Part shown: positions 47,187 to 57,317 of the stretch, piece by piece | Numbering within the stretch: the first letter of the stretch is position 1 | Layout of the letters: the number at the start of each line of letters is the position of its first letter | Position numbers and translations under genes: made by a program | Assembly: GCA_903823115.1 (NCBI GenBank) | Contig: CAIJRN010000064.1 | Coordinates: forward strand, 1 to 64,000 | Source: an uncultured cyanobacterium | GTDB taxonomy: Bacteria > Cyanobacteriota > Cyanobacteriia > PCC-6307 > Cyanobiaceae | Reading direction: 5' to 3' | Length of the DNA stretch: 64,000 bases | Notes under the pieces: generated by a model | The model's database searches: none | Seen by the model: only the letters and a program-made list of their open reading frames with translations | Told to the model about the DNA's origin: nothing

Positions 47187-48038
47187 TCAGAGGAGGGGAT
47201 CGATCCCGAACGGGTCGTCACCAGCGGTGGTGAGCAAAGCGGCGGCGGGCTGTTCCTGGGCAGCGCCCTCTGCAGCCGGCTCGGCCTGGTTCTCGGGCTG
47301 GACCTCCTGGCGCACCTTGCGGGGACGGCCCCGGCGGGCGGACGCCGCTGGGGCCGTGGATTCGACGGCCAATTCAGTGACCGGTTCGACCGGTTGAGTC
47401 GCATCGGAATGGGGACCGTCAGCCTCAGCCGCCAGCTCTGGATCTGCGGCAGCTCCGGCAGGAGCAGCAGGCAGCTCGCTGGAGAGTGAATCCACAGGCC
47501 CGACGGAATCCGCCGGCTGGCCAGCAGCTTCTGGCCCCGGATTCCATGCAGACACTGCATCGTTTTCCGCCGGAGTCGCCAGCTCCCCAGCCGCCTCCTG
47601 ATCGAGGCCCAGCAGGTTCGTGGGCAGATGGGCCGTCAGATCGGCCTCGGATTGTCGCGGGGAATCGGGGTCCGCGATGGTGGCGGCGATTGCCTGCCCT
47701 GCAGATGGAGTGGAAGCGTCTCGGCTGCCGGAAGTGGTTGTCGCCAGGGCCGTGTGCGGTGCCGCTGCCGCGGACACCGCCGGAGGCTGGGAACTCAGGA
47801 CATCGGGCGTCACGACAACCGGCGCCGCTGGCGTCGATTCAGCCCTGCTCTCCCCGCTGCCGATCTGCCAGCCGGATGCCAGCCAGCCCGGTAGATGCAC
47901 CGGCCACACGTAGCGGGTCTCGCTGCCGCGCTGGATGCGAACCATCCCCGCCTGGGCGGAGGCCGCCCCAGCGGAAACGGATGGGGCGTGACCCTGCCGG
48001 GACGGCATGGCGCCGAGGTTCGGAAACAGATCGCTCAT
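47187..48038 (-). CDS. Phage-cluster protein, Ala/Pro-rich
   Basis: The first 55 residues contain a folded-looking stretch (MVRIQRGSETRYVWPVHLPG) and the remaining about 230 are low-complexity Ala/Thr/Ser/Pro/Glu. The ATG at 48038 is chosen; a TTG at 48053 overlapping the stop of the previous gene (TTGA) may also serve. It lies in the middle of the structural operon and probably encodes a minor structural or assembly protein, which I cannot verify. Confidence 0.55.
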   Translation of the reverse strand: MSDLFPNLGAMPSRQGHAPSVSAGAASAQAGMVRIQRGSETRYVWPVHLPGWLASGWQIGSGESRAESTPAAPVVVTPDVLSSQPPAVSAAAAPHTALATTTSGSRDASTPSAGQAIAATIADPDSPRQSEADLTAHLPTNLLGLDQEAAGELATPAENDAVSAWNPGPEAAGQPADSVGPVDSLSSELPAAPAGAAADPELAAEADGPHSDATQPVEPVTELAVESTAPAASARRGRPRKVRQEVQPENQAEPAAEGAAQEQPAAALLTTAGDDPFGIDPLL

Positions 48039-48561: not shown

Positions 48562-49479
48562 TCACGTCAGCGGTGCGATGTTGTGGAGGCGGCCGGCGGC
48601 ACGGGGGTGCATGACGCCGAAACCGACGTACCAGTCGATGCGGGTGCGGAAGACGGGAGCGTCAGGGACTTCACCCAGGTCCCGCACCGAGATGCCGTAG
48701 CGACCCTGGAAAGGGCCCTGCAATCCCGTCACCCCTTGATCACCAAAGGTGCAGCAGTAGATCGAGCTGGTACCGCCGGCTTCTCCGTAGCCGAGCACTT
48801 CCAGGCCCTGGGCGTCGCGGTCGACGGTGAGGATCTGGCACTCCTGGTAGTGATGGACCATCACGCCCAGATTGTTGGTGGAGACGTTGTAGACGCCTTG
48901 ACCAACGGTGGCTCTGGCGAGGGCGTTGAGCTGGCGGCGCATCGCCTTGCTCATCACCAGGTACTTCATGCCGCCATAGGCGTTGACCGAATCGATCAAC
49001 TCATCGAGCTTGTCGAAATCGAGGGCGGTGGCACCGTTGTTGATCGCCATCTCTGCCCCGGGCGGCAAGCGCCGGGCGAGGCCGTCAAAGCCACGGGCCT
49101 GGCTGGCGGTGGCATCGCCGTTGATCAGGGCTGCCTCCAGGGTGAGGCGCATCGAGCGCACTTTCATCTCCACCTGGGAAGCCCGCGCCTCAGGCCCCTG
49201 CAGATCGACGATCGAGCGGTCCACATCGACGTCGCCGCCGAACAGGTGAACGGCTTCTGATTGGGGATCAACGACGCCGTAGCTCTGCTTGTAGCCCTCG
49301 TTCACCGCCCGGAACCCCACCGAGGGAAGTTCTTTTTCGACGGAATAGAACAGGCCGCCGCCGGCGATGTTCATGAACGGCAGCCGCGAGAGCAGTTCCC
49401 CCTCGCTGAAGGTCTTGATCACCGCCAGGTGCTCCAGGCGGCTCTCGTACTTGGCTGCCTCGATCAAGGTGAGGCCCAT
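48562..49479 (-). CDS. Major capsid protein (HK97-fold type)
   Basis: The 305-residue protein has the character of a tailed-phage major capsid protein: an N-terminal helical segment (TLIEAAKYESRLEHLAVIK), the LPFMNIAGGGLFYSVEKELPSVGF strand set, a helix-rich middle, and a C-terminal part around GVYNVSTNNLGVMVHHYQ. The ATG at 49479 is preferred over a GTG at 49485. Its position after the scaffold gene and before a possible decoration protein fits. Family is inferred from pattern and order. Confidence 0.7.
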   Translation of the reverse strand: MGLTLIEAAKYESRLEHLAVIKTFSEGELLSRLPFMNIAGGGLFYSVEKELPSVGFRAVNEGYKQSYGVVDPQSEAVHLFGGDVDVDRSIVDLQGPEARASQVEMKVRSMRLTLEAALINGDATASQARGFDGLARRLPPGAEMAINNGATALDFDKLDELIDSVNAYGGMKYLVMSKAMRRQLNALARATVGQGVYNVSTNNLGVMVHHYQECQILTVDRDAQGLEVLGYGEAGGTSSIYCCTFGDQGVTGLQGPFQGRYGISVRDLGEVPDAPVFRTRIDWYVGFGVMHPRAAGRLHNIAPLT

Positions 49480-49712
49480 CAGCACTCCAGGGGTCTGGCC
49501 CTAGCAACGTCACCAGCTCTTGCCAACCCCTTTGCGGTAGCCAGGTCGGGCCCTGCTGTTGGGGATCAGGGCGGCCATGGAGCTGGGCGAAACCGCCACC
49601 CGCTCTGCCCCGGCTCGGGCGATGCGCCAGGGCTGAACGCGAGTCGCTGCGCGACCCTGGCGCACCCCAGCCAGCGCCGGGGCCTGGTCGGGGTGTCGTT
49701 CGCCAGCCAGCC

Positions 49713-50404: not shown

Positions 50405-50674
50405 GGGGCCAGCTTCCAGCCGGCGGGGCTCCCTTGGGGCCTCCTTTCTTGCCGGTCGTTTGCCCTGTGCAGCGATGACGACGGCGGGAATCGAGACCGC
50501 TCACCTGCACGCGGAGCCCGTGGACTTGCAGCGCAGCCGGTTCTCTCCAGACACCAGCCGGCGGCAGGCCTCAGCACTGGTGGGGGAAGTCGGCAACACG
50601 GATCGGCGAGGGCCAGGAACCGCTGCCCCGGCCGTCTCGTCCCTGCGGGCCGCTACAGCCGAGGCGTGACGCGG

Positions 50675-50908
50675 ATGTCCCTCGCCTCTCTCGTGTTGGC
50701 CTCCTCTTCCCCCAGCTGCGAAATCCGCCAGTTGCTGGTGCACGTCTATCCCTCTGGCAGCAAGGCCCCGGGCGCTGAGCGCCTCACGGTCTTCTATGGC
50801 CGTCGTGGCCGGCCGGTCAAAAAGCCGCGGTTCATGCCGGCGGCCCTGGCCCATCAGTGGGCTCGCAAGCTGCAGGCCCGGCGCCTCGGCACCGTTTCGG
50901 TGCTCTGA
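50675..50908 (+). CDS. Small plus-strand ORF, paralogue of 49713-49937
   Basis: The 77-residue basic protein shares the beginning and end pattern with the product of 49713-49937. It contains a RRGRPVKKPRF basic stretch that might contact nucleic acid. The ATG at 50675 is used. A GTG at 50666 would add 3 residues. Confidence 0.45.
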   Translation: MSLASLVLASSSPSCEIRQLLVHVYPSGSKAPGAERLTVFYGRRGRPVKKPRFMPAALAHQWARKLQARRLGTVSVL

Positions 50909-51022: not shown

Positions 51023-51220
51023 CTAGGAGTCGATCAAAGGAGGATCAGGCAGGGAGCGGCTGATCAGCTCCTGGATGATTTCAGGGATGGAGCGTCCACT
51101 GCGGATGGAGATTTCCTCGATCTGCGCATAGATCTCAGGCTGAATCTCCAGATCCAATCGCTGCGGCATCCGGGAAGCATCAAATCCGGACAGCCCCTGC
51201 GGGGGGGGGGGGGCACTCAT
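51023..51220 (-). CDS. Ribbon-helix-helix regulator with a G/C homopolymer near its start
   Basis: The 65-residue protein has the ribbon-helix-helix pattern (RLDLEIQPEIYAQIEEISIRSG then RSIPEIIQEL) of CopG/Arc-like DNA-binding proteins. Its first residues are MSAPPPPQG, encoded by a run of 13 C on the coding strand (13 G on the plus strand, 51201-51213). Gain or loss of one base would shift the frame before the DNA-binding part, so expression could be phase-variable. It lies upstream, in the sense of transcription, of no other gene on its strand before the capsid gene, and may be a regulator of the phage cluster or a free antitoxin. Confidence 0.6.
   Translation of the reverse strand: MSAPPPPQGLSGFDASRMPQRLDLEIQPEIYAQIEEISIRSGRSIPEIIQELISRSLPDPPLIDS
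51201..51213. repeat. 13-base poly-G tract inside the ribbon-helix-helix gene
   Basis: Thirteen consecutive G on the plus strand fall in codons 3-7 of the 51023-51220 gene. Tracts of this length slip readily during replication and are a recognised substrate for phase variation. It is the longest homopolymer seen in the window. Confidence 0.8.
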
Positions 51221-51431
51221 TGATACGCTTGTACTTAAATGGTGGTGATGGGTTATAGGCAGTACCGGTTTGATCGTCCGAGCTTTCTTATGCAAGATAC
51301 GCATCGATTTCGTCAGATCGGCCCTGCCGCTGGATCGGCCCGATTGGTTGGCTTGATCTGGATGTGACCGGTCCGTGACAGGGATTTCCCCCGAATCAGC
51401 AACGTCGCTGGAAGGTTTTGTAGGCCTGTCA

Positions 51432-51818
51432 TCAACGCGTTCGCTCGGCGGTCCGGCGCTGGTCCTGTTGCCGCTCAGCGGCATCCATCCGTCGGGCAAT
51501 TGAGCGGGCCCAGCGCTGACCGGGATCACCACCCCAGCCATCCCAGGCCTGCCGGCCCTTGCCGTAGGTGCCCCAGCTGGAGCCCTGCTTGTCGATGGCG
51601 TGGCGCGCGAAGTAGCTGACCATCCGATCGATGGTGGTGGGCGAGAGCTCTTGACGATGAACCAGCTGCCGGGCCCGGGCCAAGCCCACCGGTGTCATAC
51701 CCCGCAGAGAAGGCGGCTGCTCAGCGCGACGCTCCAGGGCCCGGCGGGCAGCAGCGGCAGCACTGGCCGGAGGGCGGAAGGAGATATCGCGGTAGAAGTC
51801 CTTGCTCCGGCGCGGCAT
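51432..51818 (-). CDS. Phage-associated protein with SWGTYGKGRQAWDGWGGDPG-type domain
   Basis: The 128-residue protein has a pattern I know from many tailed-phage structural clusters: MTPVGLARARQL, LSPTTIDRMVSYFARH, KQGSSWGTYGKGRQAWDGW and GGDPGQRWA. The exact role is not known; such proteins lie among prohead and capsid genes. The N-terminus is basic and Ala-rich. It starts 5 bases after the stop of the 51824-52240 gene, in one operon. Confidence 0.65.
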   Translation of the reverse strand: MPRRSKDFYRDISFRPPASAAAAARRALERRAEQPPSLRGMTPVGLARARQLVHRQELSPTTIDRMVSYFARHAIDKQGSSWGTYGKGRQAWDGWGGDPGQRWARSIARRMDAAERQQDQRRTAERTR

Positions 51819-52431: not shown

Positions 52432-53316
52432 TCAGGGGCGGCGGGAGGGGGTGCGGCCGTTGACGGCAAAGGCGGCGCGGTAGATCTCGGAGGCGCTCAT
52501 CGCTTGGGGGTTGAGCGGTTCGCCGTTACTGCCGATGCCGGAGACGGTGACACCGCCGGCGGCCTGCATGCCGGTGGGGCCGCGCTGCTGGAACAGGAAG
52601 CCGTAGACGGGGTGCACCCGCATCTCATCGAGGAAATCGCCGGTGGTGAGGGGGCGGCCGTCATCACCGAGCAGGGGTTTGCCCTGGCCATCGAGCGGTT
52701 CGAGCACGTCCTTGCCGTCCTTGTCGGTGCCGAGGCGGAAGCAACTGCCCAACTGCCCCTTGAAGATGTCAAAGAAGGTCCCCCGCCGATCGCCGCCGGT
52801 GCGGCCCTCGGCCTGGGAGAAGGCGCGCTCCAGCAGGCGGTCCTTGCGCAGTTGCAGCACCTGACCGCGGGCATCGTCCCGTTCGGCGGCGACAGCGGCG
52901 ACCCTCTGGGCGGAGGCCTCCTCCATCTGACGTTCGCGCAGCTCCATGCGCTCCTCGAGCACCTGCTTCTGGCGCTCCGCTTCTTGCAGGCGGGAGTATT
53001 CCTCGGGGTTGATTTCCGAGAAGCGGTTCAGCTGCTGCCGCAGAGTGCGGATTTCTTTTTCCAGCTGGTTGTTCTTGCGGCGCTCGGCCTTGAGCGGATC
53101 GGCGGACCGACTGTCGTCGGTTCCGATGTCGCTGGGGGGCGTTGCTGAAGCCGGAGGCTGGGAGGCCGCAGGCGGATCACTGGGGAGGTTGTCACCGCCC
53201 TGGGGATCAGCACCGCCATCGGCGCTCTGGCTTGCGGCGTAGTTGTCGTCAGCGCCCTGGCCGTTGCTGGCTGCGGAGCTGGTGCTGGAAGGGGGAGCAG
53301 AGGTGGCAGTGGCCAT
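52432..53316 (-). CDS. Scaffolding-like phage protein
   Basis: The 294-residue protein has a disordered Ser/Ala/Pro/Asp-rich first 75 residues, a strong coiled coil at about 75-165 (Glu/Arg/Gln heptads), and a C-terminal folded part (FFDIFKGQLGSCFRLG, LDEMRVHPVYGFLF). Long coiled coil plus acidic N-terminus just upstream of the capsid gene is the usual arrangement of a head scaffold. No protease motif is seen. Function inferred from shape and position. Confidence 0.65.
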   Translation of the reverse strand: MATATSAPPSSTSSAASNGQGADDNYAASQSADGGADPQGGDNLPSDPPAASQPPASATPPSDIGTDDSRSADPLKAERRKNNQLEKEIRTLRQQLNRFSEINPEEYSRLQEAERQKQVLEERMELRERQMEEASAQRVAAVAAERDDARGQVLQLRKDRLLERAFSQAEGRTGGDRRGTFFDIFKGQLGSCFRLGTDKDGKDVLEPLDGQGKPLLGDDGRPLTTGDFLDEMRVHPVYGFLFQQRGPTGMQAAGGVTVSGIGSNGEPLNPQAMSASEIYRAAFAVNGRTPSRRP

Positions 53317-53697: not shown

Positions 53698-53913
53698 ATG
53701 AGCAGCCGCATCACCCACAACCCCGATCAGTGCGGCGGCAGGCCGTGCATCCGCGGCATGAGGATCCGCGTGCAGGACATCCTGGAGCTCTATGCCGCCG
53801 GGCAAAGCAGCGAGCAGATCCTGGCCGACTTCCCTGATCTGGAAGCGGAGGACCTGAAAGCCGCCTTGGCCTATGCAGCACGGGAGATCGACCACCCCGT
53901 TCTGGTGGGATGA
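53698..53913 (+). CDS. DUF433 antitoxin
   Basis: The 71-residue protein has the full DUF433 pattern: ITHNPDQCGGRPCIRGMRI, VQDILELYAAGQSSEQIL, DFPDLEAEDLKAALAYAAREI. DUF433 proteins are DNA-binding antitoxins paired with DUF5615 PIN-like toxins. The next gene is that partner, overlapping by 4 bases (ATGA), which confirms the pair. Confidence 0.92.
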   Translation: MSSRITHNPDQCGGRPCIRGMRIRVQDILELYAAGQSSEQILADFPDLEAEDLKAALAYAAREIDHPVLVG

Positions 53914-54266
53914 CGCTCTGGCTGGATGCCCAGCTGCCGCCGCAGCTGGCCGAGTGGATCAACGCGCAGGGGTGGGGAATCCAAGCAGTCGCGGTGCGTG
54001 ATGTCGGATTGCGCGATGCGAGTGATCCGGTGATCTTTCAGGCAGCACGGTCGGCAAGCGCGGTGGTGATGACCAAAGACCGCGACTTCATCCGCCTGCT
54101 GGAGGAGCAGGGTCCGCCTCCGCAGGTGATCTGGCTGCGTCTGGGGAACTGCAGCAACGCTGCGCTGCAGGAGGTTCTGTCGACCACCTTGACCCGTGCG
54201 GTGGCGCATCTGAGCGACGGCGAGCCCTGGGTAGAGATTCGCCCGAGTCAGACAGGAGCGGACTGA
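53910..54266 (+). CDS. DUF5615 PIN-like toxin
   Basis: The 118-residue PIN-like protein has the active-site acid in LWLDAQLPPQLAEW and the TKDRDF motif in VVMTKDRDFIRLL, typical of DUF5615. It presumably degrades RNA unless bound by the overlapping DUF433 antitoxin. The pair is read against the phage structural genes and converges on the LysM-HTH gene with 19 bases between stops. Confidence 0.9.
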   Translation: MTLWLDAQLPPQLAEWINAQGWGIQAVAVRDVGLRDASDPVIFQAARSASAVVMTKDRDFIRLLEEQGPPPQVIWLRLGNCSNAALQEVLSTTLTRAVAHLSDGEPWVEIRPSQTGAD

Positions 54267-55221: not shown

Positions 55222-55731
55222 TCAGCCCCGGGCCATCGCCACCTGGAACGGGCTGCCGCCGCTGCCTGTTCCCAGCAGTGGATCGCGGCTCCAGATCGCC
55301 AGTGAGGGCAGCATCAGCAGCAGAGCCTGGCCATGGCTGGCGCGCTGCCTGCGGAGGAGCAGATCCAGGGGCGCGGGCTGCTGAAAGCGCGTCACCACCT
55401 CTTCTCGCAGCAGGTCGGTGGCGTACTCGATCACGTCGGCCTTGCTAACCGGCAGTTCCCCATCAGCCCCGATGGCCCCGGCGACGGCGGCATTGCGGCG
55501 CACCTCGATCGGCGCCTGCAACTGCTCGGGGGTCAGGTCGGCGAGCTGCTGATCGATCAAGGCGATCGCCGACAGTTCGGCCTGGGCCGAGGGGATCGCA
55601 GCAGGATGGGTCTGCAGCAGGCCAGCCATGGCAGCGGCGATGGCCTCCAGCGCCTGAAGCTGCACCGGAATCGAGAGGGCCCGCCGGATCGCCTCGAGAT
55701 CGTCCGGCTGCCAGGCGGGGGTGGGGGTCAT
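55222..55731 (-). CDS. Phage-cluster helical protein coupled to the portal gene
   Basis: The 169-residue protein is helical with an alanine-rich N-terminal half (LEAIAAAMAGLLQTH) and a second half resembling a head-completion protein (SKADVIEYATDLLREEVVTRF). Its ATG overlaps the portal stop in an ATGA arrangement, showing translational coupling. Probable head assembly role, not proven. Confidence 0.6.
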   Translation of the reverse strand: MTPTPAWQPDDLEAIRRALSIPVQLQALEAIAAAMAGLLQTHPAAIPSAQAELSAIALIDQQLADLTPEQLQAPIEVRRNAAVAGAIGADGELPVSKADVIEYATDLLREEVVTRFQQPAPLDLLLRRQRASHGQALLLMLPSLAIWSRDPLLGTGSGGSPFQVAMARG

Positions 55732-57317
55732 GCCCCCTGTTGCCGCCGGCGTCTGGCCCGGGCTGGCGATCTGGCCTCCGTGGTCTGCGACGCACCATCA
55801 TCCGCCGGGGGTTCAGAGGCCGGAGGAGCTGGCTCCGAGTGCATCCCTGCCACCGGCACCTGCAGCGACGGAGAGGACAGCGACTGCGCCGTGGCCAGCG
55901 TCAGCTGGTGCCGCAGCTCCTCACGGGTGATGACGCCCCGGTCGTAGAGCTCGATCCACTCGCCCACCTTGGGCTGGGCCTGGATCGGCGGCGCCAGTGG
56001 GCTCACCGACACCTGCAGGCCGGCGCCGGGATCGAGGGTTTCGCCGGTGAGGGAGACCCAGTGCTCCAGCAGGGTGGAGAACAGCGAGGCCTTCTGGATC
56101 GCCAGGGATTGGAGCAGCGCGTAGCTCTGGCTGGCCGTCAGGCTGATCTCCAGCTCAGTGCGGGCTGCGCCGCCACTGCTGCTGGGGATCAGGGCATCGC
56201 GGCGCATGGTCTCATCGAGGCTCTGCAGCCAGGCCCGGTGCTCAGCCAGGGAACGCGCTCGGATCTCCACGAACTCGAAGGACGCATCCGCCGGCAGGTC
56301 CATGCAGGTGTTTGGGCCCAGCACCACAGGGCCGGCGGTGCTGTTGCCAAGGGTGTCGACCATCCCCATGCGCACGCCCACCGGCAGGGCTGTGCGGGAG
56401 AGGAGTTCCTCGTACTCGCTCTTGCAACGGAAGTGGTTGAGGTACTGATAGGCCAGGCCCAGGTGCGGCAGGTCCCCATCCCCGAAGGCCGAGCCATCGG
56501 AGGTGTACCAGCAGGCCGGCAGGCGGGTCAGGCCTGGATAGCGGGTGGAGGTGGGCGGATCACAACGCCAGCCGCTGGGCTCGCTCGGGTCGGCCGTCAC
56601 CGGATGCAGGCACACCTCCATGCCCGTGGCCTGACCCTCGGCCTCGGTGAGTTGCAGGCTCCGGTAGATCCAGTGGTCAGGCGCATCGGCATCACCGAGC
56701 AGCGAAGCGATCTGCTCCCGCACCGCCGCCTCAGTGCCAGGCGGCACTGGCTGGATGCCCTGGTGCTGGGGTTCCCGCCAATGGATCCGGCTCGGCAGCC
56801 CATGGCTGGAGGGGAGCGCCCAGTTCAGAGCATCGGCCCGGGGCACCAGCTGCAGCCGGGGCAACGACAGCCGATCGCCGCGGCGCAGGGCCTCCTGCCG
56901 GTCGCCCTCGCTGGGCCAGCTGTGCTCGGGGGGCAGCACCAGCACCAGGGCTGCGCCGTCCCGCAGGACGAGCAGGTCTGCCGAGGCCAGGAACACCCCC
57001 AGGTCCGTGCCCCGGCCATCCACATCGGTCAGCACCGACGCCAAGTTGCTCGGCAGGTTCAGCCAGCTGCCCCGGCTGAGCATTCCGGCGTAGGTGCGCA
57101 GGGCGTCTCGGAAGAAGCCCGAGGGTCGGGCGGCGGCCAGTCGGCGTTCGTAGGCGCCCTGGGGCTCCCGCTCACCCTGGGGCAGGTACACCTGCCTCCT
57201 GCTGCTGCCGTCAGGGGCGGAGAGCAGGTTCCAGCAGTCGGCGGCGATCTGCAGGGAGGGTTGGAGGGCGATCAGGCTGGGGTACTGGCTCCATGGGGCA
57301 GAGGGGGCTGGATGCAC
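55728..57317 (-). CDS. Portal-like protein (DUF4055 type)
   Basis: The 529-residue protein has the look of DUF4055 portal-like proteins: an N-terminal YLPQGEREPQGAYERRL segment, then FRDALRTYAGMLSRG, a long central alpha-beta part including YLNHFRCKSEYEELL, and a helical C-terminus with the typical ALLQSLAIQKASLFSTLLEHW. Length is normal for portals. Starts at GTG 57317. First structural gene after the inserted island; terminase and sigma-like genes precede the island. Confidence 0.7.
   Translation of the reverse strand: MHPAPSAPWSQYPSLIALQPSLQIAADCWNLLSAPDGSSRRQVYLPQGEREPQGAYERRLAAARPSGFFRDALRTYAGMLSRGSWLNLPSNLASVLTDVDGRGTDLGVFLASADLLVLRDGAALVLVLPPEHSWPSEGDRQEALRRGDRLSLPRLQLVPRADALNWALPSSHGLPSRIHWREPQHQGIQPVPPGTEAAVREQIASLLGDADAPDHWIYRSLQLTEAEGQATGMEVCLHPVTADPSEPSGWRCDPPTSTRYPGLTRLPACWYTSDGSAFGDGDLPHLGLAYQYLNHFRCKSEYEELLSRTALPVGVRMGMVDTLGNSTAGPVVLGPNTCMDLPADASFEFVEIRARSLAEHRAWLQSLDETMRRDALIPSSSGGAARTELEISLTASQSYALLQSLAIQKASLFSTLLEHWVSLTGETLDPGAGLQVSVSPLAPPIQAQPKVGEWIELYDRGVITREELRHQLTLATAQSLSSPSLQVPVAGMHSEPAPPASEPPADDGASQTTEARSPARARRRRQQGA

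Follow-up and report, generated by a model that had tools for sequence, protein, structure and literature searches.

Homopolymer phase variation has been studied mostly in host-associated bacteria. Phase-variable regulators are known, including the poly(C) tract of Bordetella bvgS and phase-variable DNA methyltransferases, and the lic-type loci of H. influenzae have a tetranucleotide repeat and start codons spread over more than one frame. Homopolymers at the 5' end of genes (poly(A)/poly(T)) have also been proposed as reversible inactivators, for example the 5' poly(A) of inlA in Listeria (PMC2831843). Among the titles in the literature searched, we found no homopolymer phase switch from a cyanobacterium. 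The mechanism class, the homopolymer contingency locus, is already known and the gene described here would add one member to it. We consider it probable that a cytosine tract in this gene, a small ribbon-helix-helix (RHH) regulator carried as prophage cargo, is a contingency locus acting as a translational phase-variation switch.

A cytosine tract at the start of a small RHH gene

The gene, its two possible start codons and the tract are located as follows in the window, by which we mean the whole 64-kb stretch of DNA that was analysed.

51023-51220, minus strand: gene of the RHH (CopG-like) regulator, 65 codons and a stop, with the RHH domain beginning near residue 18 (ORF, Pfam, model and structure matches)
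51218-51220, minus strand: start codon ATG, which shares the frame of the RHH domain at C10, C13 and C16 (frame arithmetic)
51214-51216, minus strand: GTG located 4 nt after the ATG, which would come into frame at C11, C14 and C17 (frame arithmetic)
51201-51213, minus strand: homopolymeric tract C13 (G13 on the plus strand), codons 3-7 of the RHH gene (direct read)

The gene runs from the ATG at 51220 to a stop at 51023, and its 65-aa product begins MSAPPPPQGLSGFDASRMPQRLDLEI. Positions 51201-51213 of the plus strand are exactly 13 G, hence C13 in the sense of the gene, which starts ATG AGT GCC CCC CCC CCC CCG CAG on the minus strand; the interval 51201-51220 reported earlier also includes the start codon. 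No other run in the window exceeds 9 bases, and the trinucleotide content predicts about 0.001 runs of 13 or more (G-runs 0.0007, C-runs 0.0003). The earlier note had placed a 13-base tract in codons 3-7, ahead of the DNA-binding domain, and both its length and its position are confirmed. The RHH gene therefore carries, as a contingency locus does, a slip-prone repeat in its coding start.

G/C runs of at least 10 bases number 15 in the source genome (3.42 Mb, 86 contigs), with five reaching 13 or more, so C13 is rare here and not unique. Other long runs in this genome include a G19 behind a gene (L066:1830-1848), a G14 two bases ahead of an ATG (L059:1827-1840) and a C14 near the end of an ORF that resembles KaiB by eye (L061:1732-1745).

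The 65-aa protein matched Pfam RHH_1 with E = 6e-4 and 20.1 bits, just under the cut-off of 20.5, and its match to a PHROG CopG-like repressor was weak (E = 0.0045). A structure model made from four sequences (the window protein and relatives) contained two confident helices, 28-41 and 45-56, and a low-confidence N-terminus which holds the tract. The best structural matches to this model in the PDB were the RHH proteins NikR, ParG, ParD and VapB, with Z of only 3-4, and a profile search of the whole PDB gave a best E of only 0.11. There was no match to the protein among 50,697 phage records. We take it as an RHH regulator, an assignment that is reasonable, if weak by sequence alone, and its N-terminal tail may be dispensable for the fold.

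The gene occupies a cargo slot in a prophage structural cluster

The RHH gene sits between a phage gene and a convergent 80-aa ORF, within a cluster of scaffold, capsid and portal genes.

50666-50908, plus strand: convergent 80-aa ORF (ORF80), unmatched in Pfam and PHROG; 27/42 genus genomes have relatives of it
51432-51818, minus strand: phage gene, PHROG 2859 (unknown function), other flank of the slot
48562-49485, minus strand: phage major capsid protein (Pfam, PHROG)
52432-53316, minus strand: phage head scaffolding protein (PHROG)
55728-57317, minus strand: phage portal protein (PHROG)

Among phage records, the capsid protein is closest to that of cyanophage PSS2 (46%). The identical slot is occupied by the RHH gene in L046, L049, L050, L051 and L053, with additional DNA separating it from the 51432-type gene in L050 and L051. 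On a further contig (L052, genome G034), which has several toxin-antitoxin-like genes, the RHH gene adjoins a distant ORF80 homologue. The named relatives are Cyanobium sp., and the source is therefore probably a picocyanobacterium of the Cyanobium group. In other genomes (L120-L148) the slot, which spans 51432 to 50908 in the window, holds a DoxX-like membrane protein or a CxxC protein in place of the RHH gene (one protein of each sort was searched against Pfam and the DoxX one alone matched), so we regard the RHH gene as optional cargo. Cyanobium sp. Cruz-8D1 has the slot region twice (L046:5418-11680), one copy with the RHH gene and one with the DoxX-like gene, other genes lying between them.

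A role as the antitoxin in a type II toxin-antitoxin pair was considered and rejected, as no co-directional toxin gene lies beside the RHH gene; its neighbours are the convergent ORF80 and the phage gene, neither with a toxin-family match. PADLOC gave no match for the six proteins tried. A toxin-antitoxin-like pair (DUF433 and DUF5615/PIN-like, 53698-54266, plus strand) is located between the scaffold gene and the 54286 gene, 2.5 kb from the RHH gene and with its own small partner. This pair marks a second cargo spot and has no match in L046, L049 and L053.

The tract is kept, at varying length, in all close relatives

Close members of the RHH family (E below 1e-20) were detected in 6 of 42 genus genomes, all six with the tract. 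Together with one IMG/VR contig (L049), the one contig that searches of viral contigs gave, these genomes, window included, yielded seven distinct sequences, one of which (L047) comes from a metagenome bin; five relatives aligned to the window protein were 40-92% identical to it. A pure C-run of 10-15 bases directly follows the start region in 7/7, with the lengths listed below.

Window (W): C13
L046: C11
L049: C13
L047/L033: C14
L050/L034: C15
L051/L035: C10, then interrupted
L053/L036: C10

Sorted, these lengths (10, 10, 11, 13, 13, 14, 15) cover all three residues modulo 3. The earlier note counted a tract length fixed in strains against a switch; across species the length is not fixed. The repeat is therefore kept while its length varies, with the differences lying from one species to another and in part involving decayed copies. 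The seven members are unequally independent, since W groups with L046, and L049 with L034 and L035.

Such a tract could be incidental, a product of mutation bias in a GC-rich genus which here falls in a gene that decaying prophages carry as a passenger, its length changes being decay. C-runs of 13 or more occur in 33 of the 42 genus genomes, and the 15 runs of 10 or more in the source genome are mostly away from gene starts, both of which fit this explanation. Several close members, however, differ in the domain by dS of about 0.6-1.6, a distance over which an idle run should by now be broken by point changes, yet every one retains the run despite an adjacent tract-to-domain linker that is more diverged than the domain. 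In an MPG-like glycosylase ORF of the source genome, a comparable C13 that directly follows codon 5 was kept in none of the 29 other orthologue loci, where the longest run was 7. For this control, 150 nt before the match were examined in 30 loci, its own included, with six of 36 matches giving no locus and being left out. The control run lies at L055:1973-1985 (contig C19), right behind ATGGCTTCAGCACTT, the ORF having been named by eye. Similarly, 30 loci near an ORF80-like gene were compared: a run of at least 10 was present in 4/4 with the RHH gene and 0/26 without, the longest run among the latter being 9, in two loci. We hence judge it unlikely that the tract is incidental.

Outside the close family, 22 of 24 loci with remote RHH genes had no run above 7. 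The exceptions were L077, whose upstream C10 has no in-frame link to the gene, and L093, with a C15; in a second genus (17 loci) this same L093 gene was the sole one with a tract. The L093 run (L093:1680-1694, genome G259, another genus) lies in codons 4-8 of a gene that also has two ATGs which overlap in different frames. At that place the sister copy, L107, shows C5, hence tracts can arise anew, which also suits an incidental origin. L093 is an independent origin of the same tract-in-RHH design.

An error of assembly or sequencing could also give a false tract length, the true length being fixed and in frame. Illumina indel errors are described as increasing in homopolymers above 14 bases, so that long runs are error-prone even on this platform (PMC8808543), and the alleles include one C15 and one C14. 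The tract was found, however, in seven separate sequences with lengths spread over 10-15, and neither the off allele at C10 nor the window's C13 reaches the length named as worst in that account (PMC8808543). We regard error as highly improbable.

Reading frames define candidate on and off alleles

By frame arithmetic on the window, C13 is on from the ATG, C14 is on from the GTG and C12 is off, giving an unrelated 51-aa product. The earlier claim that a one-base slip would abolish the regulator thus applies to loss of one C; with one C gained, the GTG 4 nt on comes into frame.

W and L046 are in frame from ATG and L049 from TTG. L035 is also in frame from ATG, yet its second helix is short of 8 codons through a deletion. 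In L047/L033 (C14), the conserved TTG is out of frame and past the last stop there is no in-frame ATG, GTG or TTG, only an ATT, which would bring L047 into frame if used as a start. In L053/L036 (C10), the ATG frame meets a TGA immediately after the tract, and an in-frame GTG is also present behind the tract. L034 has in-frame TTGs only further up, has lost the TTG used by L049 and has an altered C-terminus. Out-of-frame L033 and L036 therefore stand against in-frame W, L046 and L049, in a set that includes a metagenome bin (L047), a decaying neighbourhood (L053) and a possible ATT start.

Over the 40 codons of the domain, L033 differs from L049 by one nonsynonymous and 14 synonymous changes (dN/dS about 0.01, all dN/dS figures being from a simple count method on 40 codons). 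With so few amino-acid changes against the in-frame C13 allele, L033 is no long-dead gene. L034 and L035 gave dN/dS of 0.37-0.74 against L049 and each other and look decayed or relaxed, as an incidental tract in a passenger gene would predict. The off allele of L053 may likewise be decay, as the capsid gene of this copy (genome G035) is split by a frameshift (L053:11182-12095), a sign of prophage decay. Between W and L046, the distance from ATG to GGGG is equal and the tract differences are all substitutions, so no slippage is visible in this close pair.

The tract could instead be kept for a role other than switching: as an N-terminal tail rich in proline, as a structure in DNA or RNA where the C-run faces a G-run shortly after it, or as a leader before a downstream start. 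A run of 3 or more G occurs within about 13 nt after the tract in 6/7 (in L035 it lies further on, behind the interruption), an internal ATG immediately precedes the domain in W and L046, and one is found nearby in L034/L035. Against structure, the RNA folds of all seven gave z of -1.3 to +1.3 relative to shuffles, none being clearly more stable, and a hairpin of the C-run against the G-run was dropped for this reason. Against a tail, 13 of 15 tract-frame proline codons in four diverged members are CCC, as compared with 42% in ten cluster genes (P about 5e-4), and in two of these members no ordinary start leads into the proline frame. Internal starts are not common to all members, L036 having none of that kind. 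A retained role of this sort is, in our view, quite improbable.

Upstream control elements

Two candidate control elements precede the gene.

51290-51304, minus strand: palindrome ATGCG-N5-TGCAT, candidate autoregulatory operator (sequence)
51252-51257, minus strand: possible -10 element TATAAC (weak, 115/200 shuffles as good)

The palindrome was spotted by eye first and counted afterwards; ATGC[A/G]-N5-TGCAT is present 86-91 nt before the tract in 5/7 close members. Its position ahead of its own gene, together with the RHH assignment, suggests that the gene may be autoregulated through it. Only L046 has a convincing promoter (TGGACA-17-TATAAT, 0/200 shuffles as good). In the source genome, the motif ATGCR-N5-TGCAT was counted at 18 distinct places (control pattern 0), and four of the 18 fall within the window. 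Besides the one ahead of the RHH gene, the three window sites and the near-matches inspected showed no consistent position relative to promoters, the site at 47546 lying inside a phage gene, hence a palindrome-defined regulon was dropped and we claim none.

A putative reversible switch in prophage cargo

In the switch that we propose, slipped-strand mispairing during replication would alter the number of C in the tract. Lengths in frame with the ATG, such as the C13 of the window, would yield the RHH regulator, C12 the unrelated product, and C14 the regulator from the neighbouring GTG only. The regulator would probably repress its own promoter via the upstream palindrome, resulting in two cell states. 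The kept tract, its in-frame and out-of-frame alleles and the selected domain support a switch that would be translational, on/off and reversible. A pure tract in all members, lengths in all classes modulo 3, on and off alleles and a selected domain together make up the signature expected of a contingency locus, a pattern that would be hard to obtain from an idle run or a proline tail. The phase-variable switch suggested in the earlier note thus gains a C-run kept in 7/7, lengths of 10-15, two out-of-frame alleles and a domain under purifying selection, and remains a candidate, as slippage in living cells, the expression states and autoregulation are what we infer from these comparisons. The note's link to the phage cluster or a toxin is still conjecture, the palindrome ahead of the RHH gene being the sole hint of a target.

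As a more tentative and rather doubtful extension, temperate phages of picocyanobacteria may carry an autoregulated, poly(C)-switched RHH gene as cargo between their capsid genes, with which lysogens bet-hedge. If so, a heritable and reversible fraction of cells would lose the regulator, shifting prophage or host expression, and a homopolymer phase switch would belong to a cyanophage family. With a slippery prophage regulator in picocyanobacteria, genetic bet-hedging could be tested in a simple setting among free-living phototrophs and the phages that infect them.

Comparison with known systems

The likeness of the putative RHH gene to CopG/Arc-type repressors lies in its RHH_1 match, two-helix model and low-Z matches to NikR, ParG, ParD and VapB, as well as an upstream palindrome having TGCA cores, TGCA being the core of the CopG site. 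On the other side, its protein scores just below the Pfam cut-off and it has no neighbouring partner toxin.

With bvgS and the phase-variable methyltransferases it would have in common a slippery tract in a regulator, where one slip could change several genes, whereas the regulator considered here is an RHH protein of 65 aa, encoded in the cargo slot of a prophage. As in the lic-type loci of H. influenzae, start codons in different frames (ATG and GTG) precede the tract, which by frame arithmetic would allow graded states, but the repeat of the window is mononucleotide and its GTG start is predicted. The 5' poly(A) of inlA in Listeria (PMC2831843) is alike in its start-proximal homopolymer, its frameshift on/off logic and the reversible inactivation proposed for it. 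It differs in being a poly(A) in the gene of a surface protein, whereas the present tract is a poly(C) in a phage-borne DNA-binding regulator with putative switching.
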